Assembly: GCF_949628265.1 (NCBI RefSeq)
Contig: NC_088787.1
Span: 8,608,501-8,672,500 of the forward strand
Length of the DNA stretch: 64,000 nt
Direction of reading: 5' to 3'
Source of the DNA: Cloeon dipterum
Taxonomy: Eukaryota; Arthropoda; Insecta; Ephemeroptera; Baetidae
Part shown: piece after piece, positions 20,701 through 37,021 of the stretch
How the letters are laid out: each line of letters opens with the position of its first letter
Numbering within the stretch: position 1 is the first letter of the stretch
The notes under the pieces: model-generated
Told to the model about the DNA's origin: nothing
The model's database searches: none
What the model saw: only the letters and a program-made list of their open reading frames with translations
Made by a program: the position numbers and the translations under genes

Positions 20701-23146
20701 TAAACAGAAAATAATTTTTGTGCAAGGAAAAATGCTACAATAATTATTGTTAATACATCATTTTTATCCTAATTTTTCTAATTAATCTTTTATTTTTGAA
20801 ATTCAGAGTCAAGCGACGAGGAGGAGTTAGCCGCGCCGCTGCACGTAGTAAATACAGACGTGGGTGAAATGCCAGAAGGCGCAACCCTGTCCGATGGCAT
20901 GGACGACGACAACAACGACCTGAATGATCCCCACAGAGCTCTGGACGTTAATTTGGACGAGTGAGTAACTTTTTCAGCCTCTGAAGCGAGGTTTAAATCG
21001 CCAGTATCTACTGTTTTAGACCTTTGAGGGCGGAGGAAACGCTCCCGGTTCGAAGTCACAGGGAAGCGGTCAAATTTGAGGTGACTGGGGAGAAGAAGGC
21101 GAAGAAAAAGAGCAGCAAAAAGGAGGAGAAGGTCAAAAAGAGCAAAAAGCAGCCAATTGTGATGGACTTGCTGCAGAACGGGGAGCACACCAATGCACCC
21201 ACGGAGGTGAGATCCTTGGCATTTAATCAACTCATGACTTACTTAAAATGGATGGCTTTTAAAAATTATTGACATGAATAAGAAGTCAAGAGTTTTGTTT
21301 CACCGTTGATTACCAAAACCATCATTTTTGGAGTATCCCACAAACTAAATCATCTTGATTTTTTTTCACAGGAGCCAAGCAACGACTTCTGGCTAGATCA
21401 CGCAGAGTACGAGGCGATGCCTGACACCTCTCAGTCCAAGTTGCAAGTCGAAGATAATGAAAAGCCGAAAAAGAAGAGCAGCAGTAAAACAAAGGAGAAG
21501 TCCAAGGTTTGATTTAGTCTCTTTTGTGCTTTAATTAGTTTTTAAATTTCTCAGAGATGGATGGAAATTAATATTTTTTTTAATTTTCAGGAGAAAAAGA
21601 AAAAGAAGGAGAAAAAGGTGATAAACGAAGACTCTCTTGTTTCCTCCCTTGGAGAGGAAGCGCCAACATTTGTTCCCAATCTGAAGCAAACAATGAGCAA
21701 CAAGGACAAAACCGTCTTAATCGTGAGTTAATTAACATTTTATTATAGGGTTTACATCCCTTATTGTTTTTAAAAGGGAGAAAGCCCTTAAAATATAACA
21801 TTTTATAGAATTTTTGCCTTTTTTTGCATCTGAATACAAAAAAATTTGGAAGTGTAATTACATCAGAATAAACACTGGTTTTGCTGATTAAAAATAAAAA
21901 TCCTGTATTTTCCAGTGCACTCGGCCAATTTTGACTGGCAGCCAGCTGCTGATCAGCGTCGAGGTGAACAACACGACCGCCTCGCCGCTGCGCAGCGCCG
22001 AAATCAGCTTCTCCAAGAACGTCGAGCTTGAGCTCATTCCTGTAAGTTTGAACCGTCTGTCTGGCCTTACTCCTGTCTAAAACATTTTTATTTCTGTTGG
22101 CAGGACGGGCTTACCACCACAGAATTTGGCTCCTACCGCTTCCCACAACAGTTCCCTCCAGGCTGTTTCACATTCCCCTTGCTGTTCAACGTGGCGAATG
22201 TTAACCGTGCCTACAGTGTAAAAGCTACACTCATTTTTAATTTAGAGGTGAGTAACAACAAATTCATACCTAAAGAGAGCAGATGCCCCATTTTTAAAAT
22301 ACTGATTTTTAGAGAAAATGTTGCCTTAAATTTAATTAATTACAGGGCGGAGATTACTTTGTATTTAAGTTGGTCTTATAAATATTTGAATTATTTTATA
22401 CCAATTAATTTGATTTTGATTTTGTTGCAGTCCTACCAGGACAAAATAGATCTTGCTGTCGCCGTGCCAGCCACCTTATTCCTCAAGCCAGCGCCAATTT
22501 CCGGCTCGGACTTTGCGGAAAAACTAGCTAACGGCGAAATGCAGCACCTCTCATCTAGGAAATTTGAATCTAGCAAATCTTTCCAGCAGGTCAGTGTCAA
22601 AAAACTCGAAAAATAGCCTTTATAATTTTTAAAAAATAAAAGGTGTCATAAACAATAGTAGAGACAATTTGGAAATAAATTAGGTAACCAGAAATTTAGG
22701 AAATTGATAAATTAATTAAATCACCCAATTTTAATATACATTTGTTTACTATCTTCAGTTATGTTGGCCCGAAATTCCCTTGTGCATTATTTTTAAAATC
22801 AACCAAAGTAATTGTATCAAGCTTTTAGCTCTATAATTATCCTTAACTTTAAAAAAAATCCTTAATAATTCCAATCTGGACAGGCTCTGAGCTACTGCCT
22901 GGCGTACTTCTATCTGGTGGAGCAAGTGGGCGACACCGCGTCCCTGGCCGCGCAGAACCCGCAGGGCAGGAACGTGTTTTTGCTCATCAAGTCGCAGGTT
23001 TGCTCCTCCATTAATCACCAGTTCGGCAAAATTCTTAATTTATTCTGCTCTTGCAGGGCACAAGCCTGAGCCTCGATGGCAAGAGCGACAACCAGGAACT
23101 GATCGAAAACGTCGTCCAGTCGCTGCAGACGGTGCTGGCCGTCTGA
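14748..23146 (+). CDS. AP3D1: AP-3 adaptor complex subunit delta
   Basis: Large subunit of the AP-3 coat, which sorts transmembrane cargo from TGN/endosomes to lysosomes and lysosome-related organelles (garnet in Drosophila). Coding exons: 14748-14843, 14905-15000, 15063-15191, 15247-15387, 15444-15573, 16844-16983, then 17200-17273 or alternative 17037-17110, 17684-17733, 17789-17887, 17945-18090, 18149-18297, 18529-18759, 18929-19333, 19822-19990, 20046-20289, 20807-20960, 21020-21206, 21372-21506, 21591-21722, 21916-22041, 22104-22247, 22431-22589, 22884-22997, 23057-23146. These total 3,540 nt, or 1,179 residues, near the animal family's usual length. The start matches family N-termini (MALRKVKGNLERMFDKNL). 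The alpha-solenoid trunk fills roughly the first 600 residues (IKIIKL, NTVIAVLISISSGMPNHS, FEWYVSVLVELTR). An acidic/serine hinge and Lys-rich tracts (KKKSSKKEE) follow, then the ear. The exon 18149-18297 donor is GC, giving a GC-AG intron. A polyadenylation signal follows at 23284. Confidence 0.97.
17037..17110 (+). CDS. AP3D1: AP-3 delta alternative exon 7a
   Basis: A 74-bp exon encoding 24 residues (FGVFTHVEPRVGQKL and on) homologous to exon 7b. Acceptor CAATTCAG, donor AG|GTGCCC (weak). It has the same length and phase as 7b, so either can join exon 16844-16983 to exon 17684-17733. Including both would shift the frame. Eleven of the 24 residues differ from 7b. It is probably an isoform exon; a decaying duplicate is the alternative. 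Confidence 0.7.
17200..17273 (+). CDS. AP3D1: AP-3 delta canonical exon 7b
   Basis: A 74-bp exon encoding FGALTPLEPRLGKKLIEPL and on, matching the conserved trunk sequence of animal delta adaptins almost residue for residue. Acceptor AAATTGCAG, donor AG|GTAAAC. It lies 89 bp after alternative exon 7a. Confidence 0.95.
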
Positions 23147-24267: not shown

Positions 24268-27200
24268 ATGGCTGCAAATTCGAGCATCGAAGAAATAGCG
24301 GAAAAAGGTCTAAATTGATTATTTTTAAAAATAGCAGTTGCTTAATATTAAAAATAGGATACAATGAAGGCCGCAGTGAGTTGCCTGCTCGGCTGGGCTT
24401 TTTTGAGGCTGGCGAGGGAAGGAAGCAAAACGCAGACAAGTAAGCTAATGTGGTTATCTCCTGTTATCTGAAACTGATAGTCATAATGATTTTTTTATTT
24501 GCCAAAAACAGAACAAAGTCAGGGAACAATTCTAACTATGTACTGGGGGAACGATATTTAGAAATGGTTCACCGCTAAGGTAAAACAATCAGGGCTGTGA
24601 ATTTTAGATGATTTTTTTCAGGAAAATAGTCGACTAAATTTAGACGGTTTTTAGTATAAATTTAGACAGTTTAGTTGATTTTTTTTCAATTTAGACGTTT
24701 TTTGACGATTTTGTTTATTTCTTTTTTTACTGTAAATAACTATATTATCATGTTAAAAATTCGATAAAAAATGACAGTTTCTATTATTTATTGCCTTTTT
24801 ACACGGCGAGAAAAACGAATTTCGGAATGGAACTTTCTGCTCAGATTTATTCCTAATGTGATATTGTGATAGTGTTATTTTATTTTTGAATATCAGCAAA
24901 GAACAGTGAAGAAACAATGATAATATTGAGATAAAAAATTTAATTGGACATTTTTATAGTTCTTTTTTTATAGCAAAATTTAACACATTCTATTTATTAA
25001 CTCCCCCCTTCCTTAGTCGACCGGCTGCTATATTGCTATACGATTTTAAACTCTAATTATAAATATTTTGTTTTCTTTGAGCAATTTCAAATTTGTTAGA
25101 AATAAATTTGATTGTGTTATATGTACAATAATTATGTATTTGTGAACAGCGTGTGCGTTCTTGTGGTGCACTACAAATTTGGAGCAAACAAAGAGTTTTC
25201 CCGAGATGGTGATGAGGAGGACATGCGCAATTTGCGAAGCACCTTTCAGGAGAAGCGCAACTGCACCTTTAGGGAGCTACTTTCCCCGAAAAAGACCGAA
25301 TTGCTTCTTCTTCTTTCGGATGAATACCAGCTTCTCCGTTTTTTCAGCACGCAAGGTAAGGCAGAGGACACAAAAAATGCATATATCATAGGAACTTGTT
25401 TTAGCAGAGGTGCCAGCCGTATTTATTCTGTTCATCCTGTCGCATGGCAGCGAAGGAGGGAAAATATTTACAGACCACTATCAGGAAGGCTCTCAGAATT
25501 ACATACATTTTACCACCACGGAAGTATTAGATTCATTGAGCAAACTCAACAACTTCTCTAGTTGCTTGAAGTTTGTAAATTTTGGCGTAAGTATGCCCTT
25601 TAAAGTTTAATTTAATGTGGGTAATGATTCCATTGAAATTCAATAAATACACAGCCCTGTCGAGGAAATTTGGACGACTCTATTCACCAGTACGCAGGCA
25701 GCCTCGAAGCTTCGTATGACAATCGCAATTCGTGCAGCGTTACCTTTACGCCGGAAATGCACAACCTCATCATCATGTTTTCGACCGTTGAAAGTAAGAG
25801 AGGATAAGCAGAAGTTTTTTAATTAAGAAAAAACATCTACTATTTTCTATGTGTTTAGCCACCACTGCAATCCGAAATAACAGGGGATCGTGGTTAGTGC
25901 GAATGACTTGCGAATCGCTCAACGCGCTGAAAGAAGACAAGCAGATTTTGCCTTTTCTTACTGGCATTCAGTTCAAAACGCACATTGAGTCCCGCTCCAG
26001 CGTTGACATCAGAGGAGCGCCATGCGGAGGCCAAACTCTCGAGCTCAAAATGTTTTCGCAGGATGCCTTGTTCGTAGTATCAGCCCTTCCAAAGTATGAA
26101 CAGTATTCCATATAATAATTTACTTTTAGCTAAAATCTGGAATTTACATATTAGGAAATATTCTCATTAATTAGGACATCACAAAACTGTTGGTTCCTTT
26201 AACAATTTATCTGATGCGGTTCACTTGCCGCAAAACAGTTTATAAAATTTAAAAAAAAAATATGTAATTCATAATTGCTTCTCCAACCGCAAATTATACG
26301 AGCAATGGTTAAATTATTTAATATACGTATTTCTTTTAAAGGGAATCACAAGTCAGAATAGAATCAAGCTGCGACGCCAACGGTAGGCGATATGAAAATT
26401 CTCGCCCATCGCGACCAGAACACTTCTATACTTGGCAGTCGGACCGCGAGGTTAACGTCAGAGGTCGCAGAGCGGTCATTTTCCTTCAAGAATGGAGTGA
26501 TCTGGTTGAAAACATAACTGAAGCACTCTCTAAAAATCTTTCATTTGATACCAGTCATCGATGGCTCACCAACTCGAACCTGCGAGCGTTTCTTCAAGAA
26601 GGTAGCACATTAATCTATACAGTTTCATGAAATTTGACGAAAATTTTGATATATGGAGAGAAAAATTTAGAAAATAATTATTTAAAGAAAATTTATATTT
26701 GCATAAAAGTCTACTATACGTTTGTTTCCAGATTTTGAAGGGGGAGTTGGATGTCTGTTGACCTGCGTGTTTGGCAAGGTAGTAACGGAGCACGAACGGA
26801 GCAATGAAGTGTGCGTGTGCGTGGAGGGTAAAATTATGCCTGTCGGGGACATCATGCACAATTTCATTGGGCCCAAAAATGCAACTTGGATTGGCAAACC
26901 AAAGATTTTCTTCATTATTGATCAGCAAACTGAAGAAAAGAGGGACAATTTGCAGGTCAGCGAACAAAAATTTATATTTGATAAGGCAAAAAAATGCATT
27001 AAATTTAATAATTTTACGTATTTCTAAGATGCAAAAATGTATTGCTATTTTTATCCCGTTCTGTTATATTGTTTTATTTTTCACTCGTGATTTTTCTAAA
27101 TTGGTTTCAGTCTTGCACTCCTCAAGCAGAAACAATTTTGGCAACCAATCACAGTGGGTGGCTCGTTCTCATTTTAAAGAACAATGGTATGTTATTAATT

Positions 27201-30200
27201 TAAACAAAATACATTGTTTTACCTGATTTTACGAATTTTCCCTTATGGATGCAGACTTGGCACGTCACCTTATCGACATCCTCAACGACAAGCAGCTGAC
27301 CAAGGGAAAAAGTCTGCAAGTGCTGCTGGCGAAATTGCTCATTTGTTCAAAGGGCAACTCCGGAATGTTGCTCAACTCCACTCTACAGTACCTCCTCAAT
27401 TTTCCAGATTGGCCAAGAGAATTCGTAAAGCCATTTTTCTTTATTGCAAAGGACCAAGGTGTACCATTATGGTCAAGTAGCCCAATAACTTATGCAAATT
27501 TACTTGAAATGGCAACTCCCACAACTTGCGAAAATCGCGTGTGGCTTTTCAGCTCTGAGGCCGGGTCCGGGAAAACGACAGTGTTGAAGGAAATCGCGTT
27601 TGACCTGGCGAGGTTGCTGCCAGGAGTGAAAATACTGCGAATCTCGCTCTCAAATATGATTTCTTATATCTCAGATCATTATTCCACTTTGAAGCCTGAC
27701 AAATTAATCGCGAAGGCTACCCACCACTCACCAGAAGAAATTAGGGCAGTGCTAAATGAGAGGAATAAAGCGATCGTGCTTCTCGATGGATTCGACGAGG
27801 TTCCAGACGAAAGAGAAAACGTTTTGCTCGTAGCAAAATATCTAATAAAGAAAAACGTTCCTCTGTGGATCAGCACGAGACCGCAAGAAGCAAAATACAT
27901 TCGAGATGAAATTTTGAAAGACGAGGAAAAAACTGCCATTGAAAAACCACGCGAGGGATTCAATTCCGTATTTGATACACGACTAACATCAGCTGAAAAT
28001 CAAAATTCGCAAGTCAAGCATTTTTCGTTACAAAATAGCCATTTAAACGCCGAAATGAAGAAAAACGTCTCTCTGTGGATCAGCACAAGCCCGCAAGATG
28101 AGGAAAAAACTGCCTCTGAAAAACCACCCGAGGGATTCAATTCCGCGTTTGAAAAACGACAATCAGCTGAAAAACAAAAAAACAAAGTCAAGCTTGTTTG
28201 GTTAAAAAATTGCCCTTTAAACGCAGAAATGCAAGTCGAGTTGCTGCAGATGGTGACAAAGAAGAGTTTGGTCGAGTGCCAGCAGTTTGTGAAAGAATTT
28301 GAGGACAAGACAATACTTGAGAACCCGTTCCACCTTACCCTGGTCGCTCAGTGTGGGAGCACTCGAAACTTATATAAAATTTATGAACAAGTTGTGGAGC
28401 AGAAGGTGGAAAAATGTTTAGTAGAAAAAGAAGGGTTGGACACAACAAAACCAACATATATATCCCGCAAGAACAAAGCTTTGAGCTTCCTCAAATCAAC
28501 TGCTTCCCACTTAATAACCAGACGAATAAACGATGCGGAATCAATGAGATCAGAAGCTCAGGGAATAAAAAACCTCGAAAAATTGAACGATTTCGGCATT
28601 GCGACAGTCGAGTCCGGCCAGGTCACGTTTGTACATCAAACCTTCATCGAATTTCTCGCCGCGCAGCAGTATTTAGATAAAATCCCTGAGCTCGATAAAA
28701 ACAAAAATATGGAGTTCTTAGAAGAAATGTGGAAGCATCCACAGTGCATGAAGTTCATTGACCTATATTTTTCGACTGACCAAGAAGAAAAAAAATTTAG
28801 AGCGTTTGCTGATGATTCCTGGAAATTTTTCAAACAAAGGCCTGCTCGTTTTTTGCTTCATGTGTGCAAGGAAAACCTAAAGCACATCTTCAGTAAGTTG
28901 AAACCACAAATTTCGTTTTGCAAAAATGATGAAAAGCCGATTTGTACAACGTTTGGTGGTGAACTCATCTGCAGTGCAGTGCAGCATGAAAACATGTCAC
29001 TGGAATTGCTAGACATGGGAGCAATAGGAGACGAGCATCAACTCGCCAATATTTTGCCCAAACTATTAAAAGCTATTGCTCTTTCCAACTCAACTGGCTT
29101 TTTCAAGAAGATGAAAGAAAAGTTCCCGAAACTATCTGAAATGATTCGCATGCGGAGCCATAAAATCGACGCCGCAATGGCAGCTGTTGAAAAGGGCCAC
29201 TACGAAATACTCGAGCAGCTTCTTTCCAATGGCTTGGATGTGAACTTTTCATTGAACCAAGGACAATTGGCTTCTTTTGTAGCATGCAAACGAGGCGATA
29301 TCGAATGCATGAAAGTGCTGCATAAACATGGAGCCAAACTCGTGATAGAAGACCCTCTATCCGGTGCAGTACTAGATCATGCTCTCTTTGAAGCCATTTT
29401 CAACGGCCATCTAGAGCTTATCAAATTCATGGCAAAGGAAATGCTAGATGATGTATCCATTCAAGACAAAGAAGGCAGAAATGCCATTCATATTGCTGTC
29501 GACAGTGACCAATCAGATATTATTAAATTTTTGAATCAGGTGGACAACAGACTGGTGAATGGAAGAACAAAAATGGGACTTAGCCCGCTGCATTGCGCAG
29601 TTATAGCAGAAAGATGGGAGCTGTGCCATTGGCTTATTAGAGAGGGCCTATTCAATGTTGAAATTTTGGATTCCGAGCTCTTATTTCAAATTGATGACGT
29701 AAATTTCAGCGAAGTTTGTCGCGATTTTAAACTTATGCTCTCATTTTCCGACAATGTGAACTACACTGACAATAGAGGACAAAGTGCGCTTCATTGCGCT
29801 GCCCGCTACGGATGCCTGGATGTGCTTCAGCAGCTTATTCTCGTTGCCGGAGCCGACTTGGAGGTCACGGACCAAAGAGGATGGAACGCCCTACACTACG
29901 CATGCCGGGGCTGGTCAAGTCGTGGTATTTACTCGAATATGCCACTGACTCATAACGTAAATGGTAGCGAGAGGTACTTGATTGCAGCAAAATTTTTGCA
30001 CGATAATGATATTCACCTAATCAAAAAACGGACAGGAGATGAAAAAACTGCATTGCACCTTGCTGTACTAGAAAATGGAGATTTGGCTATGATTAAATGG
30101 CTGGTGGAAGAACTTGGAATCGATGTAAACGCAGAAGATTCAAGTGGTCATTCAGCGATGCAATATGCTATTGAGCAACAAAGTTGGAGTGTTGTTTTTT

Positions 30201-32587
30201 ACTTGATAGAGTTTGGTGCTGCCGTGGACAAAAAATTTATAGCAGATTATTTAGCCCCAACTGATTACAGAAATGTTGCTGTTATCAACGAGCGGGGCGA
30301 CACAGTTGTGCATTTGGCTACAGTTACCTCTATGGTGTTATTGCAAAAATGTATCGACCTAGGTGCTGACTGCAGAATTGCAAACTGCTTGGGAGAATAT
30401 CCGATACACACGGCATGTCAATGTAATCACCTAGCTGAGGCTAAATATTTACACAGCTTGCACAGTGACCTTGTCGAGAAGAGCAACCATTTAGGAGCAA
30501 CGACAATTCATCTTGCCATCGATCACCACGAAGACTTGGAAATGTTGCGTTGGCTTGTGGAACACGCTAAAGTAAACATTAATACTGTGCATTTTGATGG
30601 TGACACAGTTGTGGTCGCCGCATTAAAACAAAGAAGATGGAATGCCGTTGACTATCTCCTCACCCAAACTGGAATTGATATTCACCAGAAAAACAGGCTT
30701 GGCATGAATGCACTGCTCTACGCTACTTACCACGGCAGATTGGAAACCTTGGATAAACTACTTGGCCTAAAATCCGATCCAGCTGAGAAAAATATACTTG
30801 GTTTAAATGCGTTCCACATTGCTTGTGAAAACAACAACCTGCGAGTTGCAAAATTCTTGCTTCCTTACTGTGGGAAATCAACAACAGAAATGACCAATCA
30901 AGGGCAGAATGTACTACAATTATCGGTGTCTAATGCAACTTTGGCAAAAGAAATTGATGTATGTGAACTGATCAAATGGCTATTGGAAAATGTTAACGTC
31001 GATGTGAATCACGTAGACGAAAATAAGGAAACTGCATTGCTGATCGCCTCTCGCAGAAACATTTGGAGCGCTGTCAACGTTTTGCTGCAGCACGGCGCAG
31101 ATGTTCACCAAAAAGACGCTAATGAAATGACAGTCTTGCACTACGCAGCATTTTATGGCAACGTTGAAATGATAGAGAAGTTGGTGAGTGAATTTGGAGC
31201 AGACCTGAGTGCGAAAAACAACCAGGGACAAAATGCTATGCACTTTGCGTGTTTCAAGTCCGAGTTGGAAGCGGCCAAATTCTTGAATAGAAAAAAAAGG
31301 GGTCTCATTTGGGAGGTGACAATAGATCACAACACTGCTCTACATATTGCAGTGCAAGATATTCAACTACTTGACCTGGCGATGGTTCGTTGGCTGGTAG
31401 AAGAAGTTTGCCTGGATCCAGAGGCTTTGAATAGTCAAGGCCAATCTGCTTTGCTCATAGCATGTGCGAGTCAAAGGTTGGACATAGTTTCCTATTTGCA
31501 TCGCATCGGCGCCAAAATTGATGTCGTGGACAAGCAAGGAAAAACTGCTCTACACCACTTTGCAAAATTTGGCCGTCGAAAGAACATTGAAACATTTCTC
31601 CGCTTGGGTCTACATTTAAGAGCCAAATGTAACAGTGGATTTAATATATTGCACGAAGCATGCATGAGTCGGAATTACGAATTAATCTTTCAGCTAATCA
31701 GATCTCCATTGGCTGCGGAAAAAACAAAGGATGGCAAAACAGTTTTACATCTTGCCGTAGAAGCCTCTCCGCCAATATTGCCCAGTGAACATGCCGGAGT
31801 GTCTGATGAGATCAATTTCTGGACGAATCACCAAACTCTGGTGGAAAAAATTCTATCATCCCCAGATGAAAATTTTCCCAGTAAAAATCTGTTGCATGTC
31901 AAAGCAATACTGAGGATGCTTGAAAATCAGGACGTAGATGTAAATGCCGAAGATGAAAATGGTGTATCAGCATTGCTCTTAGCTTTTCAAAAAAATGAAA
32001 TGAGGATAGCATATAGCCTGATAGTAATGAAGTCCGATCAAATAGTTATTGATATCAACGAAAATATGATTGATTTGTGTTTCTTGTTAAATGCTTACAT
32101 GGGAGATCCAGAAATCCTTCAAATTTGTCTCAATATGAATGCAAACATTAACGCCGTAGACAAACGAGGAAACACCGCTTTACATTATGCAGCAGATAGC
32201 AATTTGGATGCATTGAAAGCTCTAATCATGTTTGGAACTGAAGTTTCAACAAAGAACCGGAATGGCTGGAATGCAATGCATGTTGCTTGTACAGGATTGC
32301 ATCTTGATGCTGCCAAAATGTTGCACATGAAAAATAGCAGTTTGATAAAGGAAAGAACTCATGACGGTGAAACCGTTTTGCACCTCGTTACCAGCAAATC
32401 TAGACCTGGCATACGTGCGGAAGATGTGGAAGAGATTCAAAATTGGATTGTAGAGGAGGCGGGAGTTGAACTTGACGCACGTGACAATGAAAACCGAACA
32501 GCACTTCAAAAGGCAATCTTACATAATGACTATGAATGCGTGAAAAATTTGCATAAATTGCAGGCTAAGGTGGCTCCAAAACAATAA
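24268..32587 (+). CDS. Caspase-pseudocaspase-NACHT-ankyrin protein (NLR-like)
   Basis: Ten exons: 24268-24307, 24358-24439, 25150-25355, 25408-25586, 25655-25793, 25859-26093, 26342-26601, 26732-26955, 27111-27186, 27255-32587. They total 6,774 nt, or 2,257 residues, in phase. Residues about 41-290 form a complete caspase (peptidase C14) fold: F..RDG...D near 51-59, catalytic His122 in FILSHGSEGG, catalytic Cys171 in NFGPCRGN, and a p10-like FSTVE...RNNRGSW. Residues about 300-520 resemble a second caspase (GKPKIFFI) but lack both catalytic residues. A NACHT ATPase follows: Walker A EAGSGKTT with Lys587, Walker B VLLDGFDE near 656-662, LWISTRP near 684, and a helical FVHQTFIEFLAAQQYL near 940-955. 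About 30 ankyrin repeats fill 1115-2250 and are presumably the sensor. No signal peptide or membrane segment, so cytosolic. By analogy with NLRs, ATP-driven oligomerisation could activate the fused caspase in cell death or immunity; that role is inference. Symbol unknown. Confidence 0.88.
27849..28230 (+). repeat. In-frame duplication inside the NACHT region
   Basis: Two adjacent coding copies, from about 27849 and about 28058. Both begin with codons for KKNV(P/S)LWIST, continue through DEEKTA.EKP.EGFNS, and end in LNAEM. The first copy keeps the sensor-like STRP; in the second it is STSP. Confidence 0.85.
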
Positions 32588-32939: not shown

Positions 32940-34145
32940 ATGTCAGGTCCAGCGGTGTGGCGGAGCCCTCCGCCTGGGCACCAGATGCCTACGCAGTCTT
33001 TTTCGGGGGCTCCAAATGCTGTACCGCTTTCAAATCAGACGCAAACTCTCGTCACTCAGTCGGCTCTCCCTGGATCAGCATGGCCTCAGCCGCACGTAAA
33101 TGATGTCAGTAATCACCACTATCAGCAGTGTAGCCAACCTGTGCAAAGTGTAAATAGTCAGCAAACTCAAAATGAGTTAGTGTCAGTCATCCAAAACCTA
33201 ACTCAAGTTTTTGAATCAAACCTGGCATACATGCGTGAAGAGCTTGCTAGATCCAAAGAGGAAGCCAGACGGCGAGAAGAATTTTTAGAGAGGCAGATTG
33301 GCGGTCTTCGGGAAGAGCTGCGACATGTCCAAGAAAGCCTTTCGGACAAGTCATACTCAGCTGATGGCTTTCGGACCCAACCTCCCAACTCCCTCTCCAA
33401 GCAGTTCCCTGGCCCTCAACAGGGCTTCCGGCCTAGGAAGGTATGGCCTAAAGTAGAAAAGTCAGCTGAAACGCCAAATGCTAACGAATATCTGGACAAA
33501 TCTGTGGAGCTTGATCTCGCCCTGAAGAATGGAAAATCCTTAGCAAATCCTCAAGCTAAATGCTCGTTCGTGGAGCACATCGGTAACTTGTGGGAAGCGG
33601 AAGAAGAAGTTAAAATCCACGCAGTTGGTGCTGATCTATCGCTCGGAGTTGGTGTCGCAGCCGATGCTGTGAGGTACGCTGGTCGTCCCGAGTGTGAGCC
33701 GAACTCCGCTGTCGTCGGTGATGTGATCAAACAAGAAGCCGACAAAGTTGGGACTATTTGGCACTTGGTGACTAAGCAGAAGTCTTCATACAAAATCTAC
33801 AAAAAGCCTGAGCCCTTTGTCCAAAATGTGAAAAAAGCTTTCAGATGCCTCGCTGAGGAAATCAAGAAGGAGCAGCTGACTGAAGTGGCCATGTCCTTCC
33901 TCTGCAGCGGATCGGATCGGATGAACCGTGTCTGGATCATGCAAAGACTTTATGAAGAACTGATGGACGTGCCAGTGACTGTGCATTTCTACAATAAATA
34001 TCCATCAAAGCGATGGAATGGGTGCACTCAACTTTTTGCGGCCAAGCCTGATTTGAATCTCGTCGACGACAGAGAGGGTGATGATCCTGCTGAGGAAAGT
34101 TCCTCGAAGAAAAATCTGCGCCCTAGGAAGACAGCTTTAAATTAA
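32940..34145 (+). CDS. LINE ORF1 protein with coiled coil and TARG1-like macro domain
   Basis: 401 residues. A Pro/Gln/Ser-rich N-terminus (1-80) is followed by a charged coiled coil at about 80-135 (REELARSKEEARRREEF) that probably drives oligomerisation as in other ORF1 proteins. Residues about 208-352 read as a macro domain of the OARD1/TARG1 type: HAVGADLSLGVGVAADAV matches the ADP-ribose-binding H.(I/V)..D.(R/S).G.G.A region, LVTK matches the LITKK strand, and SGSDRMN matches the GCGLDR loop. The lysine and aspartate used for catalysis in TARG1 correspond to Lys279 and Asp326, so hydrolase activity is possible. The C-terminus is acidic then basic. I see no CCHC zinc knuckle or clear RRM. 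The macro assignment is from memory of family motifs, not a search. Confidence 0.8.
   Translation: MSGPAVWRSPPPGHQMPTQSFSGAPNAVPLSNQTQTLVTQSALPGSAWPQPHVNDVSNHHYQQCSQPVQSVNSQQTQNELVSVIQNLTQVFESNLAYMREELARSKEEARRREEFLERQIGGLREELRHVQESLSDKSYSADGFRTQPPNSLSKQFPGPQQGFRPRKVWPKVEKSAETPNANEYLDKSVELDLALKNGKSLANPQAKCSFVEHIGNLWEAEEEVKIHAVGADLSLGVGVAADAVRYAGRPECEPNSAVVGDVIKQEADKVGTIWHLVTKQKSSYKIYKKPEPFVQNVKKAFRCLAEEIKKEQLTEVAMSFLCSGSDRMNRVWIMQRLYEELMDVPVTVHFYNKYPSKRWNGCTQLFAAKPDLNLVDDREGDDPAEESSSKKNLRPRKTALN
34136..34142 (+). promoter_or_regulatory. Predicted -1 ribosomal frameshift site (T TTA AAT)
   Basis: In the ORF1 frame the last codons are GCT TTA AAT TAA, so the heptamer T TTA AAT fits X XXY YYZ and abuts the stop codon. 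A -1 slip here enters exactly the frame of ORF2, which is open from 34127 and has no ATG until 34265, after the start of the endonuclease fold. The downstream structure was not evaluated. Confidence 0.65.
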
Positions 34146-37021
34146 GTAACCCCTTCGCAGCACCAGTCAAGCTAAGTGATCTAAAGCTGCTACTTTGGAA
34201 TGTTGAGTCTCTCAAGACCATTATTAATTTAGTTGGTGATATATATTTTCGTGCTTTTGATATTATGGTGCTGACAGAAACATTTCTGCTAAATGACATT
34301 TCAATCAAGGGGTTTTATAGTAAACATATTTTTGGGGTTAAATATGACAGAGGCAGACCTTTAAGAGGTGTATCAATTTTTTATAACTCTAAACTTGGCA
34401 AGCTGGTAAATTATCATAAACTAGAAAATTCTCTGATCTTAAATTTTGATAAATTTTCAATTGTAGGCTGCTACTTTGAACCACACACCTCTTTAAATAA
34501 TTTATGGGATGAATTAGTTGAGGCTTATGTGTACATTGATAATCCTGATACCACCATTTTTTGTGGAGACTTTAACTGTAGACTTGACACGAGCAACTCG
34601 AAAAGTGATTTGATTTCTTATTTCGCTATGGTCAGTAATTTATTTTTAGCAAATCCTACTCCTTATGAGAAGACATATGTCGCTAAAAATGGTTCGAGTG
34701 TGGTTGATCTAATATTTTGTTCTAAAAACATTCATCAAATGAAATTAAAAATTACTGACTCTTTCCTTAGGAAACACAGATTGCTCTGCTTTACTTTTTG
34801 CATTTCAGATATCTCTCCTTTAAAATTAGCAAATATTAACAATGTGGTAAAAATTGATTTCGATCGAATGCACGAACTTGCTATTTTCCCATATAAGAGT
34901 AATTTAAAAGACAATATTAGCTCTTTAGAAGTGGATAAATTTTATGAGAATATCAAACAACTTATTCAAGATTCCAGAACTAATATCAGCTACAAAAAGC
35001 GAATTAGTCAGCCTTGGTTTGACGCTGACTGTTATTCTGCGAGAGCAGATTTATTGTTTCTGAGAGATTTCACAGATAATTTTTCTAAATATCCGGGTAA
35101 AAATACTGAAAGAGATGAAGTCTTAGAAATTTTCAACGAATGTAAGAAGTATTACAGAGGTTTATGCAGAGTAAAGAAGTCTCTCTTCATTGATAAAAGT
35201 GATGAAAAAATAATTCAGGACTCCGAGAAGTTTTGTTTTAAATTACTGAATAAAAATTGTGATACTACGCAAGTCAATAATGTTCCTATGCATGAATGGG
35301 AGGCTCATTTTGGAGCGATTTACAACAATGCCAAATTAAGCGCATCAGATTCTCTAAATCTAAAAGACCTTTTAATAAATTACACTAAAAATCCTACTGT
35401 TAAATGGTTCCTAGAAGATGAAGTAAATTTATCTATTAAGGAACTAAAAATTAAGAAAGCACCAGGGCTTGACTTGGTAACAAATAAATGTTTGAAAGAG
35501 TTAAACGTAGTTTTAAATAGTGAACTAACGAAATTTTATAATATATGCCTTCAGAATGGTATTTTTCCCGATTCCTGGAAACTCTCTAATTTGAAGCTTT
35601 TATTTAAAAACAAAGGTAGTCCGGAGGATGTAAACAATTATAGAGGGATCAATTTATCCTCCTCTATGTTTAATCTTTTGGACAAAATGCTTAACAAACG
35701 TTTGTATTCCTCTCTAATCAGCTATATTCCATTAAATCAATTCGGCTTTATTAAAGGGAAATCTACTGTACAAGCTGTAAATTTACTTATTCAACATATT
35801 CACTCAACAGTAATTGTAAATAAGAGACCCCTGTACGCTTTATTTTTAGATTTACAAAAAGCATTCGATTCTATTAGTAGAACATTTATCTTTAAGAAAG
35901 TCGTAGATACAAAAATCTTTTCTTTTGAAGAGCTAAACTTGCTTGCAGAAATTCTTGACGTAAATTTTCTATTAATTAATGATGGTATTTCCGTTTCTGA
36001 AGAAATTTTACAGTCAAACGGGGTTAAACAAGGAGGGTGCATGTCACCCTTCCTGTTCATTTTTGCTATCAGTGATATTAACGATATTATGAAAGATTTC
36101 CCTGGCGTTAAATGCATTTTGTATGCAGATGATATTGTACTTTTAAGTGAAAATTTAAATGATTTTTCCATTTTACTGCCCAGAATTACAGACTACCTAG
36201 CTATAAGATGTTTAAAATTAAACGAAAAGAAATGCCAAGTCATGAAATTTAGAGCCGGTGGTCATGGTCGTTATAGCAAAGTAGATTTGAACTGGGAAAA
36301 ACAGAATAAAATTACCTTCTGCTCTTCAATTAATTATCTAGGAGTCACTTTCCAAACTGCAGGTGTATGTTTTAGTAAACATATTGATAAGAGAGTTAAA
36401 GCCTCAATATTTGCTACAGGCAAAATTAAAAATTTGTCAAAAAGTTCTATTGTTACAGCCAAAAAATTATTTGATTTAGCTATTTCTCCTGTTGCCTCAT
36501 ATGGTATTGAAGCTGTCTGGAAATACTTGACTTTAAAAGACTTAAATAATCTTGAATGTGCTAAGTCTAGATTTTTTAAGAAAGCCTTATGTGTCGATAA
36601 GAGAATGAAATCAAGATTTGTATATGATCTAGTTGAGACTGATTATTTTGTAAATGACTTAAAGACAAAATTCTCCCTGCCGGACACACCTGTTTATATT
36701 AAATTCTTGGATAATATGATGCATAAAAAACAAAATATTCACCCTAATTTTTACAGTACCCCAGCTATGACAAACAAGAACTGGTGGCTACCCTATTGTA
36801 AAGATCGAAGTGTTTTTACGAGATACTCTTTCCATGGTTATCATTTTCTGTTATGTAAAGACAAACGTTTCCATCTAGATGTTTCTGCTAATTGTGTTTG
36901 CCAATTCTGCGATGAAAGCGGTATAGACATGTATCATTTCCTCAATTGTAAAAATAATACAACTACCTTATTTCAAGCTGCTAAATATAAGAAATTGCAG
37001 TTAAATAATATCGTTATATAA
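34136..37021 (+). CDS. LINE ORF2: AP endonuclease and reverse transcriptase
   Basis: 961 residues from the frameshift site; the first ATG is at 34265. The endonuclease fold opens before that ATG (LLLWNVESL), so translation must enter upstream. Endonuclease motifs: WN, VLTETF, CGDFNCRLD. The final SDH-like motif reads RKHRLL, keeping His but not Asp. Reverse transcriptase motifs in order: YRGINLSS, NQFGFIKGKST, ALFLDLQKAFDSI (motif A), GVKQGGCMSPFLF, CILYADDIVLL (motif C, YADD). The C-terminus has a Cys/His cluster (C..C near CQFC, then H and C) typical of LINE ORF2 tails. No RNase H domain. This enzyme nicks target DNA and copies the RNA in place. Clade not assigned. Confidence 0.9.
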   Translation, partial: FKLSNPFAAPVKLSDLKLLLWNVESLKTIINLVGDIYFRAFDIMVLTETFLLNDISIKGFYSKHIFGVKYDRGRPLRGVSIFYNSKLGKLVNYHKLENSLILNFDKFSIVGCYFEPHTSLNNLWDELVEAYVYIDNPDTTIFCGDFNCRLDTSNSKSDLISYFAMVSNLFLANPTPYEKTYVAKNGSSVVDLIFCSKNIHQMKLKITDSFLRKHRLLCFTFCISDISPLKLANINNVVKIDFDRMHELAIFPYKSNLKDNISSLEVDKFYENIKQLIQDSRTNISYKKRISQPWFDADCYSARADLLFLRDFTDNFSKYPGKNTERDEVLEIFNECKKYYRGLCRVKKSLFIDKSDEKIIQDSEKFCFKLLNKNCDTTQVNNVPMHEWEAHFGAIYNNAKLSASDSLNLKDLLINYTKNPTVKWFLEDEVNLSIKELKIKKAPGLDLVTNKCLKELNVVLNSELTKFYNICLQNGIFPDSWKLSNLKLLFKNKGSPEDVNNYRGINLSSSMFNLLDKMLNKRLYSSLISYIPLNQFGFIKGKSTVQAVNLLIQHIHSTVIVNKRPLYALFLDLQKAFDSISRTFIFKKVVDTKIFSFEELNLLAEILDVNFLLINDGISVSEEILQSNGVKQGGCMSPFLFIFAISDINDIMKDFPGVKCILYADDIVLLSENLNDFSILLPRITDYLAIRCLKLNEKKCQVMKFRAGGHGRYSKVDLNWEKQNKITFCSSINYLGVTFQTAGVCFSKHIDKRVKASIFATGKIKNLSKSSIVTAKKLFDLAISPVASYGIEAVWKYLTLKDLNNLECAKSRFFKKALCVDKRMKSRFVYDLVETDYFVNDLKTKFSLPDTPVYIKFLDNMMHKKQNIHPNFYSTPAMTNKNWWLPYCKDRSVFTRYSFHGYHFLLCKDKRFHLDVSANCVCQFCDESGIDMYHFLNCKNNTTTLFQAAKYKKLQLNNIVI

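Follow-up and report, generated by a model that had tools for sequence, protein, structure and literature searches.

A window of 64,000 nucleotides from the baetid mayfly Cloeon dipterum (NC_088787.1, positions 8,608,501 to 8,672,500 of the forward strand) contains a gene, LOC135937463, that is predicted to encode a caspase, a pseudocaspase, a NACHT module, and a long ankyrin-repeat array on a single polypeptide. Its product is most likely an NLR-like immune receptor in which the ankyrin array and the NACHT switch control the attached caspase/pseudocaspase pair. We assign a probability of about 0.66 to the reading that it acts as a single-chain receptor-protease working by the mechanism proposed below: a NACHT-ankyrin protein of NLR-like type that carries a caspase and, behind it, a pseudocaspase as its N-terminal effector. 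Animal NLR signaling is understood to involve a receptor, an adaptor, and a separate caspase, and, to our knowledge, most accounts describe arthropods as having no complete NLR-type receptors. The NCBI and UniProt entries for proteins of this kind call them uncharacterized or name them after single domains.

Gene Structure

The gene model comprises the following parts:

24268..32587, + strand, coding part of the whole gene (LOC135937463), 10 exons, 2,257 amino acids
24268..24439, + strand, exons 1-2 (24268-24307 and 24358-24439), residues 1-40, missing from the NCBI model; paralog N-termini are similar
+ strand, exons 3-6: 25150-25355, 25408-25586, 25655-25793, and 25859-26093
+ strand, exons 7-10: 26342-26601, 26732-26955, 27111-27186, and 27255-32587
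27187..27254, + strand, last intron, 68 nt, within the small-subunit half of domain 2; same site in three paralog proteins

GT/AG borders and matching phases were found at all ten exons, yielding 2,257 residues without an internal stop. The in-phase splicing proposed in a first-pass annotation of this DNA is thereby borne out over nine introns, and the ends that it gave (24268, 27186, 27255, and 32587) are exact. The NCBI protein (P0054, LOC135937463, 2,192 amino acids) equals residues 66-2257 letter for letter, which implies seven shared junctions between exons 3 and 10. Because the NCBI model starts at Met66, it lacks the beginning of the caspase domain; C14 is not in the precomputed Pfam list of P0054. 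Residues 1-65 are resembled by the N-termini of paralogs such as P0002, which supports the longer start with exons 1 and 2.

It is very improbable that annotation has fused two neighboring genes, one with the caspase exons and the other with the NACHT-ankyrin exon, a case that the first-pass annotation had itself raised for 24268-27186 and 27255-32587. The big exon does have an ATG of its own at 27245, but the phases fit at all nine introns and the NCBI model is identical over residues 66-2257. Furthermore, the fold of domain 2 lies half on either side of the last intron, so that a gene stopping at exon 9 would stop mid-fold. The sequence ends in TNHSGWLVLILKNN before this intron and resumes with DLARHLIDILND after it; three paralog proteins have the same junction, with HSGWLVMILKDK before and DLL after it, across gaps of 62, 62, and 63 bases, which indicates introns near 60 nt. 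The same domain order is also found in another genus. The two-gene reading was rejected on the splice phases, the identical NCBI model, and the paralogs with the same junction, and a chance assembly was excluded by the recurrence of the order at 86 of the 102 NACHT loci listed, window locus included. As judged from the sequence, caspase, pseudocaspase, NACHT, and ankyrin array are one gene and one chain, in a gene model held in common with NCBI.

Caspase and Pseudocaspase Domains

Residue counts below refer to aligned rows from 91 proteins sampled by similarity to the window gene, from which 24 Cloeon entries of the older assembly ("Hypothetical predicted protein") were removed so that no gene would count twice, and in which the window protein stands in place of P0054.

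24387..26093, + strand, domain 1, caspase with catalytic residues, residues about 24-290, exons 2-6 (Pfam C14, PDB, and fold of paralog P0012)
25202..25204, + strand, Arg59, equivalent by alignment to an S1-pocket Arg; R in 55 of 57 deduplicated rows
25443..25445, + strand, catalytic His122 (SHG); H in 58 of 59 rows
25658..25660, + strand, catalytic Cys171 in GPCRG; C in 57 of 60 rows
25873..25875, + strand, Arg221, equivalent of the second S1 Arg; Thr in 17 of 34 Cloeon rows
26424..27457, + strand, domain 2, pseudocaspase, residues about 322-548, exons 7-10, catalytic pair lost

Peptidase_C14 was matched at residues 42-255 above the Pfam cut-off (E = 3.2e-11), and the best 60 of 139 PDB matches of domain 1 were caspases. 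A caspase fold was also found in the predicted structure of paralog P0012, in which the matches listed fall on domain 1. The PDB matches and this model reject a chance match and contradict the absence of a caspase fold, which the first-pass annotation had considered; the motifs that it reported, SHG with His122 and PCRG with Cys171, lie exactly where it placed them, and the Pfam search that it suggested recovered the Peptidase_C14, NACHT, and Ank families. By the criteria of family C14A, domain 1 is a predicted caspase fold with a catalytic dyad in a deviant motif: the active-site block reads GPCRG instead of QACRG, with G at 169 in 53 of 60 rows and P at 170 in 51 of 60, and the QACxG pentapeptide is absent. 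Arg59 and Arg221, whose equivalents we take to line the S1 pocket, are both present in the window protein, and the protease is probably Asp-directed. At the Arg221 position, Thr occurs in 17 of 34 Cloeon rows vs. 0 of 27 Neocloeon rows; specificity may therefore vary and may have changed in part of the Cloeon family.

The first-pass annotation recognized one caspase, which stands, and missed a second, degenerate caspase domain at residues about 322-548. The caspase fold of this domain 2 was found in predicted paralog structures. Its Cys-aligned column (445) holds C in 0 of 67 rows, its His-aligned column (396) holds H in one (P0072), and no row has both. Domain 2 is accordingly modeled as a pseudocaspase, i.e., a caspase fold from which the catalytic pair is absent.

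It seems unlikely, if a real alternative, that in the same receptor domain 1 is no working protease and instead binds substrates or partners as a scaffold, the N-terminal part being a decoy or a platform that recruits or restrains separate caspases. Such a role would suit the replacement of QA in QACRG by G and P in the rows counted above, the Thr at the second S1 Arg, and a domain 2 that is already dead. Against it, His (58/59) and Cys (57/60) are kept although six members compared share only 46-52% identity with the window domain 1, and the adjacent pseudocaspase has lost both residues, so that the dyad is not retained by the fold alone.

Two further observations concern these domains. Approximately 200 extra N-terminal residues precede domain 1 in P0016, P0018-P0022, and P0066-P0068 (domain 1 from residue 213-290); the extension is alike in P0016, P0018, P0019, and P0067 (FAYCLDT...NYFIVPS, with one or two changes), and the one member tested, P0016, had no Pfam match there. 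Eleven weak domain-2-like matches without a nearby NACHT match lie at G000:C3:8346587-8631675 and are possibly free-standing pseudocaspases or a diverged branch.

NACHT Module and Ankyrin Array

27557..27913, + strand, NACHT domain, Pfam span, residues 582-700 (E = 5.4e-10, above cut-off)
27563..27580, + strand, Walker A GSGKTT (residues 584-589)
27779..27799, + strand, Walker B LLDGFDE (residues 656-662)
28628..28663, + strand, winged-helix motif FVHQTFIEFLAA (residues 939-950); the family motif aligns with NLRP3 FIHMTFQEFFAA
27918..28182, + strand, tandem duplication in the NACHT module, copies 27918-28005 and 28095-28182, 80% alike
29183..32560, + strand, ankyrin-repeat array, residues about 1124-2249 (Pfam Ank families and family-built hidden Markov model, HMM)

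The full NACHT with Walker A and B noted in the first reading is present, with Pfam NACHT above cut-off, and the key residues of Walker A, Walker B, and the winged-helix FxHQTFxEFLA are invariant across nine members. Searched against PDB, the NACHT family profile obtained 13 matches at E ≤ 0.01 (best E = 7e-5), of which 12 are NLRP-type (11 named NLRP3 and one fusion) and one is NAIP. Only the family profile succeeded; the NACHT-side stretch of the window alone had no PDB match at E up to 1. By its Walker A, Walker B, and winged-helix His motifs, the module is classified as a NACHT STAND NTPase. In the C-terminal part, where an NLR in the strict sense has leucine-rich repeats (LRR), Pfam found ankyrin families and no LRR; we therefore use the term NLR-like, and strict NLR (NACHT-LRR) membership fails.

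CARD, DED, PYD, and Death domains scored nowhere in the window protein (Pfam, E up to 1) and do not appear in the list of 18 families for 29 relatives; the death-fold domain through which inflammasome receptors recruit caspases was not found.

A long array had been described earlier as ~30 ankyrin repeats. Its length is confirmed and the count is not: the family-built HMM recognizes 21 units at a threshold of 0 bits and 13 at a threshold of 5 bits, and about 1,125 residues would fit up to ~34. This array is probably the sensor. NCBIfam ankyrin matches to models of bacterial effectors were far below cut-offs and reflect the ankyrin repeats only, and Pfam matches to RICTOR_N, HBS1_N, and RPAP3_C, also below cut-off, were set aside. 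The tandem duplication in the NACHT module is in frame, with copies 177 bases apart, and is absent from eight paralogs compared; it carries a second LWIST-PQ motif in which Arg is changed to Ser.

Family Distribution and Evolution

The C. dipterum genome contains at least 102 NACHT-region loci, clustered from the listed rows of genome searches. Among the 102 listed, 86 have domains 1 and 2 upstream, nine only domain 2, one only domain 1, and six neither, with "upstream" denoting a distance of at most 6 kb for domain 1 and 4 kb for domain 2 on the same strand, as judged by position and not splice-checked. Contig C4 carries 47 of the listed loci and C2, with the window at C2:8608501-8672500, carries 34. 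The domain order of the first-pass annotation holds, and the gene that it described is one of about a hundred, the window locus being among the 86.

The order domain 1, domain 2, NACHT was identified in 35 of 37 Cloeon RefSeq proteins (one protein twice) and recurs in a related insect, Neocloeon triangulifer, in 25 of 30 proteins, which represent at most 29 genes because one LOC number covers both P0039 and P0053. No relatives outside these two genera were among the named protein matches listed, in searches that scored at most 8,000 candidates under a word-sharing limit, and this absence is not proof.

A single branch parts the genera both in the tree of domains 1 and 2 (50 rows, support 93/89) and in the NACHT tree (57 rows, support 98/96), where similarity-based sampling may have missed orthologs. 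On the Cloeon side of both trees, which are rooted at the midpoint only, the window gene splits off first, and its branch is long.

Ratios of nonsynonymous to synonymous substitution (dN/dS) were calculated pairwise for 31 distinct loci of the 40 in L009-L048. The median was 0.35 (56 pairs) in the NACHT-side segment, which covers the end of domain 2 and NACHT up to the winged-helix motif, and 0.57 (57 pairs, up to 1.17) in everything behind that motif, not the ankyrin repeats only; the pair L035/L043, without a boundary, is counted in the second segment alone. The value was higher behind the motif in 50 of 56 pairs, which are not independent. By these values, the genes are maintained and their C-terminal side changes faster.

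This family pattern bears on whether the active caspase switch serves immunity at all. A role in development as an apoptosome-like trigger, in genome defence, or in self/non-self recognition is conceivable, given that some fungal NACHT-repeat proteins are described as incompatibility genes (PMC4986451), but we judge it somewhat less likely still than the scaffold: about a hundred copies, the separation by genus, and the faster change behind NACHT resemble recognition genes and are unlike one conserved developmental switch.

Proposed Mechanism and Comparison With Known Systems

For the single-chain receptor-protease, we infer the following course. The ankyrin array would bind a microbial or danger-derived ligand, upon which the NACHT/winged-helix module would exchange nucleotide and oligomerize, gathering the N-terminal parts. 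Domain 1 may then take an active, dimer-like form against domain 2 of the same or a neighboring chain, a pairing modeled on caspase-8 with c-FLIP(L), in which the pseudocaspase would by analogy regulate the active caspase; the idea draws on accounts of caspase-8/FLIP(L) (PMC7586951) and coral Caspase-X (PMC4715348). The activated, probably Asp-directed protease would cut a host target, either a downstream caspase or a death effector. As gasdermin E is reported to be absent from Arthropoda (PMC11508797), a downstream caspase is a reasonable guess. The first-pass annotation had proposed a self-contained sensor, switch, and protease that would need no adaptor; array, NACHT, and caspase do share one chain, and its effector of one caspase becomes a pair.

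Several points weigh against this reading. The caspase folds are structure predictions on paralogs, with domains taken singly. With GPCRG in place of QACRG, pocket geometry may differ and protease activity is not to be assumed; three deduplicated rows lack Cys or both catalytic residues, and the second S1 Arg is Thr in the Cloeon rows noted above. Asp177, adjoining the active-site block, recurs in 47 of 60 rows, and 43 of 58 rows have an Asp in the linker, which makes processing by cleavage possible. For domain 2, Pfam C14 matches just one of seven members (E = 4.4e-4), the window's copy alone reaches only E = 0.11, and P0072 has the His without the Cys; hhalign detected no similarity between domains 1 and 2, and a recent tandem duplication is therefore not claimed. 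Twelve of the 13 NACHT/PDB matches have no single stretch that passes alone, and dN/dS nearing 1 is also compatible with relaxed constraint.

A 2024 survey describes arthropod NLRs as without an N-terminal effector domain (PMC11508797), which makes the effector-bearing mayfly architecture unexpected; a shrimp NLRC without CARD has been studied (PMC12370184). Our literature search, with subscription papers mostly outside its reach, found no description of caspase-NACHT proteins in animals among the papers listed, and in the main text of the Cloeon genome paper (PMC7250882) no word starts with nacht, caspase, nlr, or ankyrin.

The mayfly protein shares with animal NLRs such as NLRP3 and NAIP a NACHT with Walker A/B, the winged-helix FxHxTFxEF motif, a C-terminal repeat array, and membership in large lineage-specific families as described for zebrafish (PMC4852459). 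It differs in having ankyrin repeats instead of LRR and a same-chain caspase, whereas NLRs use CARD, PYD, or DED to recruit one. Coral Caspase-X (Acropora, PMC4715348) likewise carries an active-type and an inactive caspase domain on one chain; its authors suggest a procaspase-8/c-FLIP-like pair and report lowered cell viability with the full-length protein and a stronger effect with the active domain alone. There, however, the inactive domain comes first, whereas the mayfly order is active then inactive, and the main text of that paper has no word beginning with "nacht". Caspase-8/c-FLIP(L) also pairs an active caspase with a pseudocaspase (PMC7586951), but as two proteins joined through DEDs.

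Bacterial metacaspase-NACHT(-WD40) proteins combine a caspase-like protease, NACHT, and C-terminal repeats on one chain (PMC3501461). The protease is a bacterial metacaspase, with no pseudocaspase or ankyrin described in that account, whereas mayfly domain 1 resembles animal caspases (best 60 of 139 PDB matches). Fungal NLR sensors with CHAT caspase-like or S8 proteases also unite sensor, switch, and protease, and fungal protease domains can be fused to ANK repeats as well, but these belong to other protease families and are described as controlling gasdermins (PMC12881547). Similar single-chain designs are known from bacteria and fungi; the mayfly version has what appears to be an animal-type caspase, together with a pseudocaspase.

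A broader proposal, tentative and a little short of even odds, is that baetid mayflies possess a single-chain inflammasome that unites NLR-like receptor, initiator caspase, and c-FLIP-like pseudocaspase in one polypeptide. Cloeon would have about a hundred genes for it and Neocloeon many, expanded independently in each genus, and every gene would carry its own sensor and directly gated death protease. If true, insects, commonly described as having no such arm, would possess a version that ranks among the largest and most self-contained in animals. The fusion of caspase, pseudocaspase, NACHT, and ankyrin repeats could allow NACHT gating of a caspase to be studied in one protein, and the caspase/pseudocaspase pair in cis would pose the caspase-8/FLIP question in a natural form with fixed stoichiometry. 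The mayfly genes would also show a large NLR-like repertoire in an insect lineage, against the effector-less arthropod NLRs of the survey (PMC11508797), and the per-genus expansions offer material on recognition by ankyrin repeats.

Genomic Neighborhood

Rfam had no match in the window at gathering scores. A non-LTR retrotransposon (32940-37021, + strand) follows the gene, beginning about 350 bases past the stop codon; its first open reading frame (401 amino acids, open) has no Pfam match, and its second (918 amino acids, open) encodes an endonuclease/reverse transcriptase (RVT_1, E = 2.4e-32). Upstream, about 1.1 kb before the start codon of the caspase-NACHT gene and on its strand, what look like the final coding exons of another gene were recognized by eye at 22900-23146 (+ strand); they end in QSLQTVLAV and a stop.

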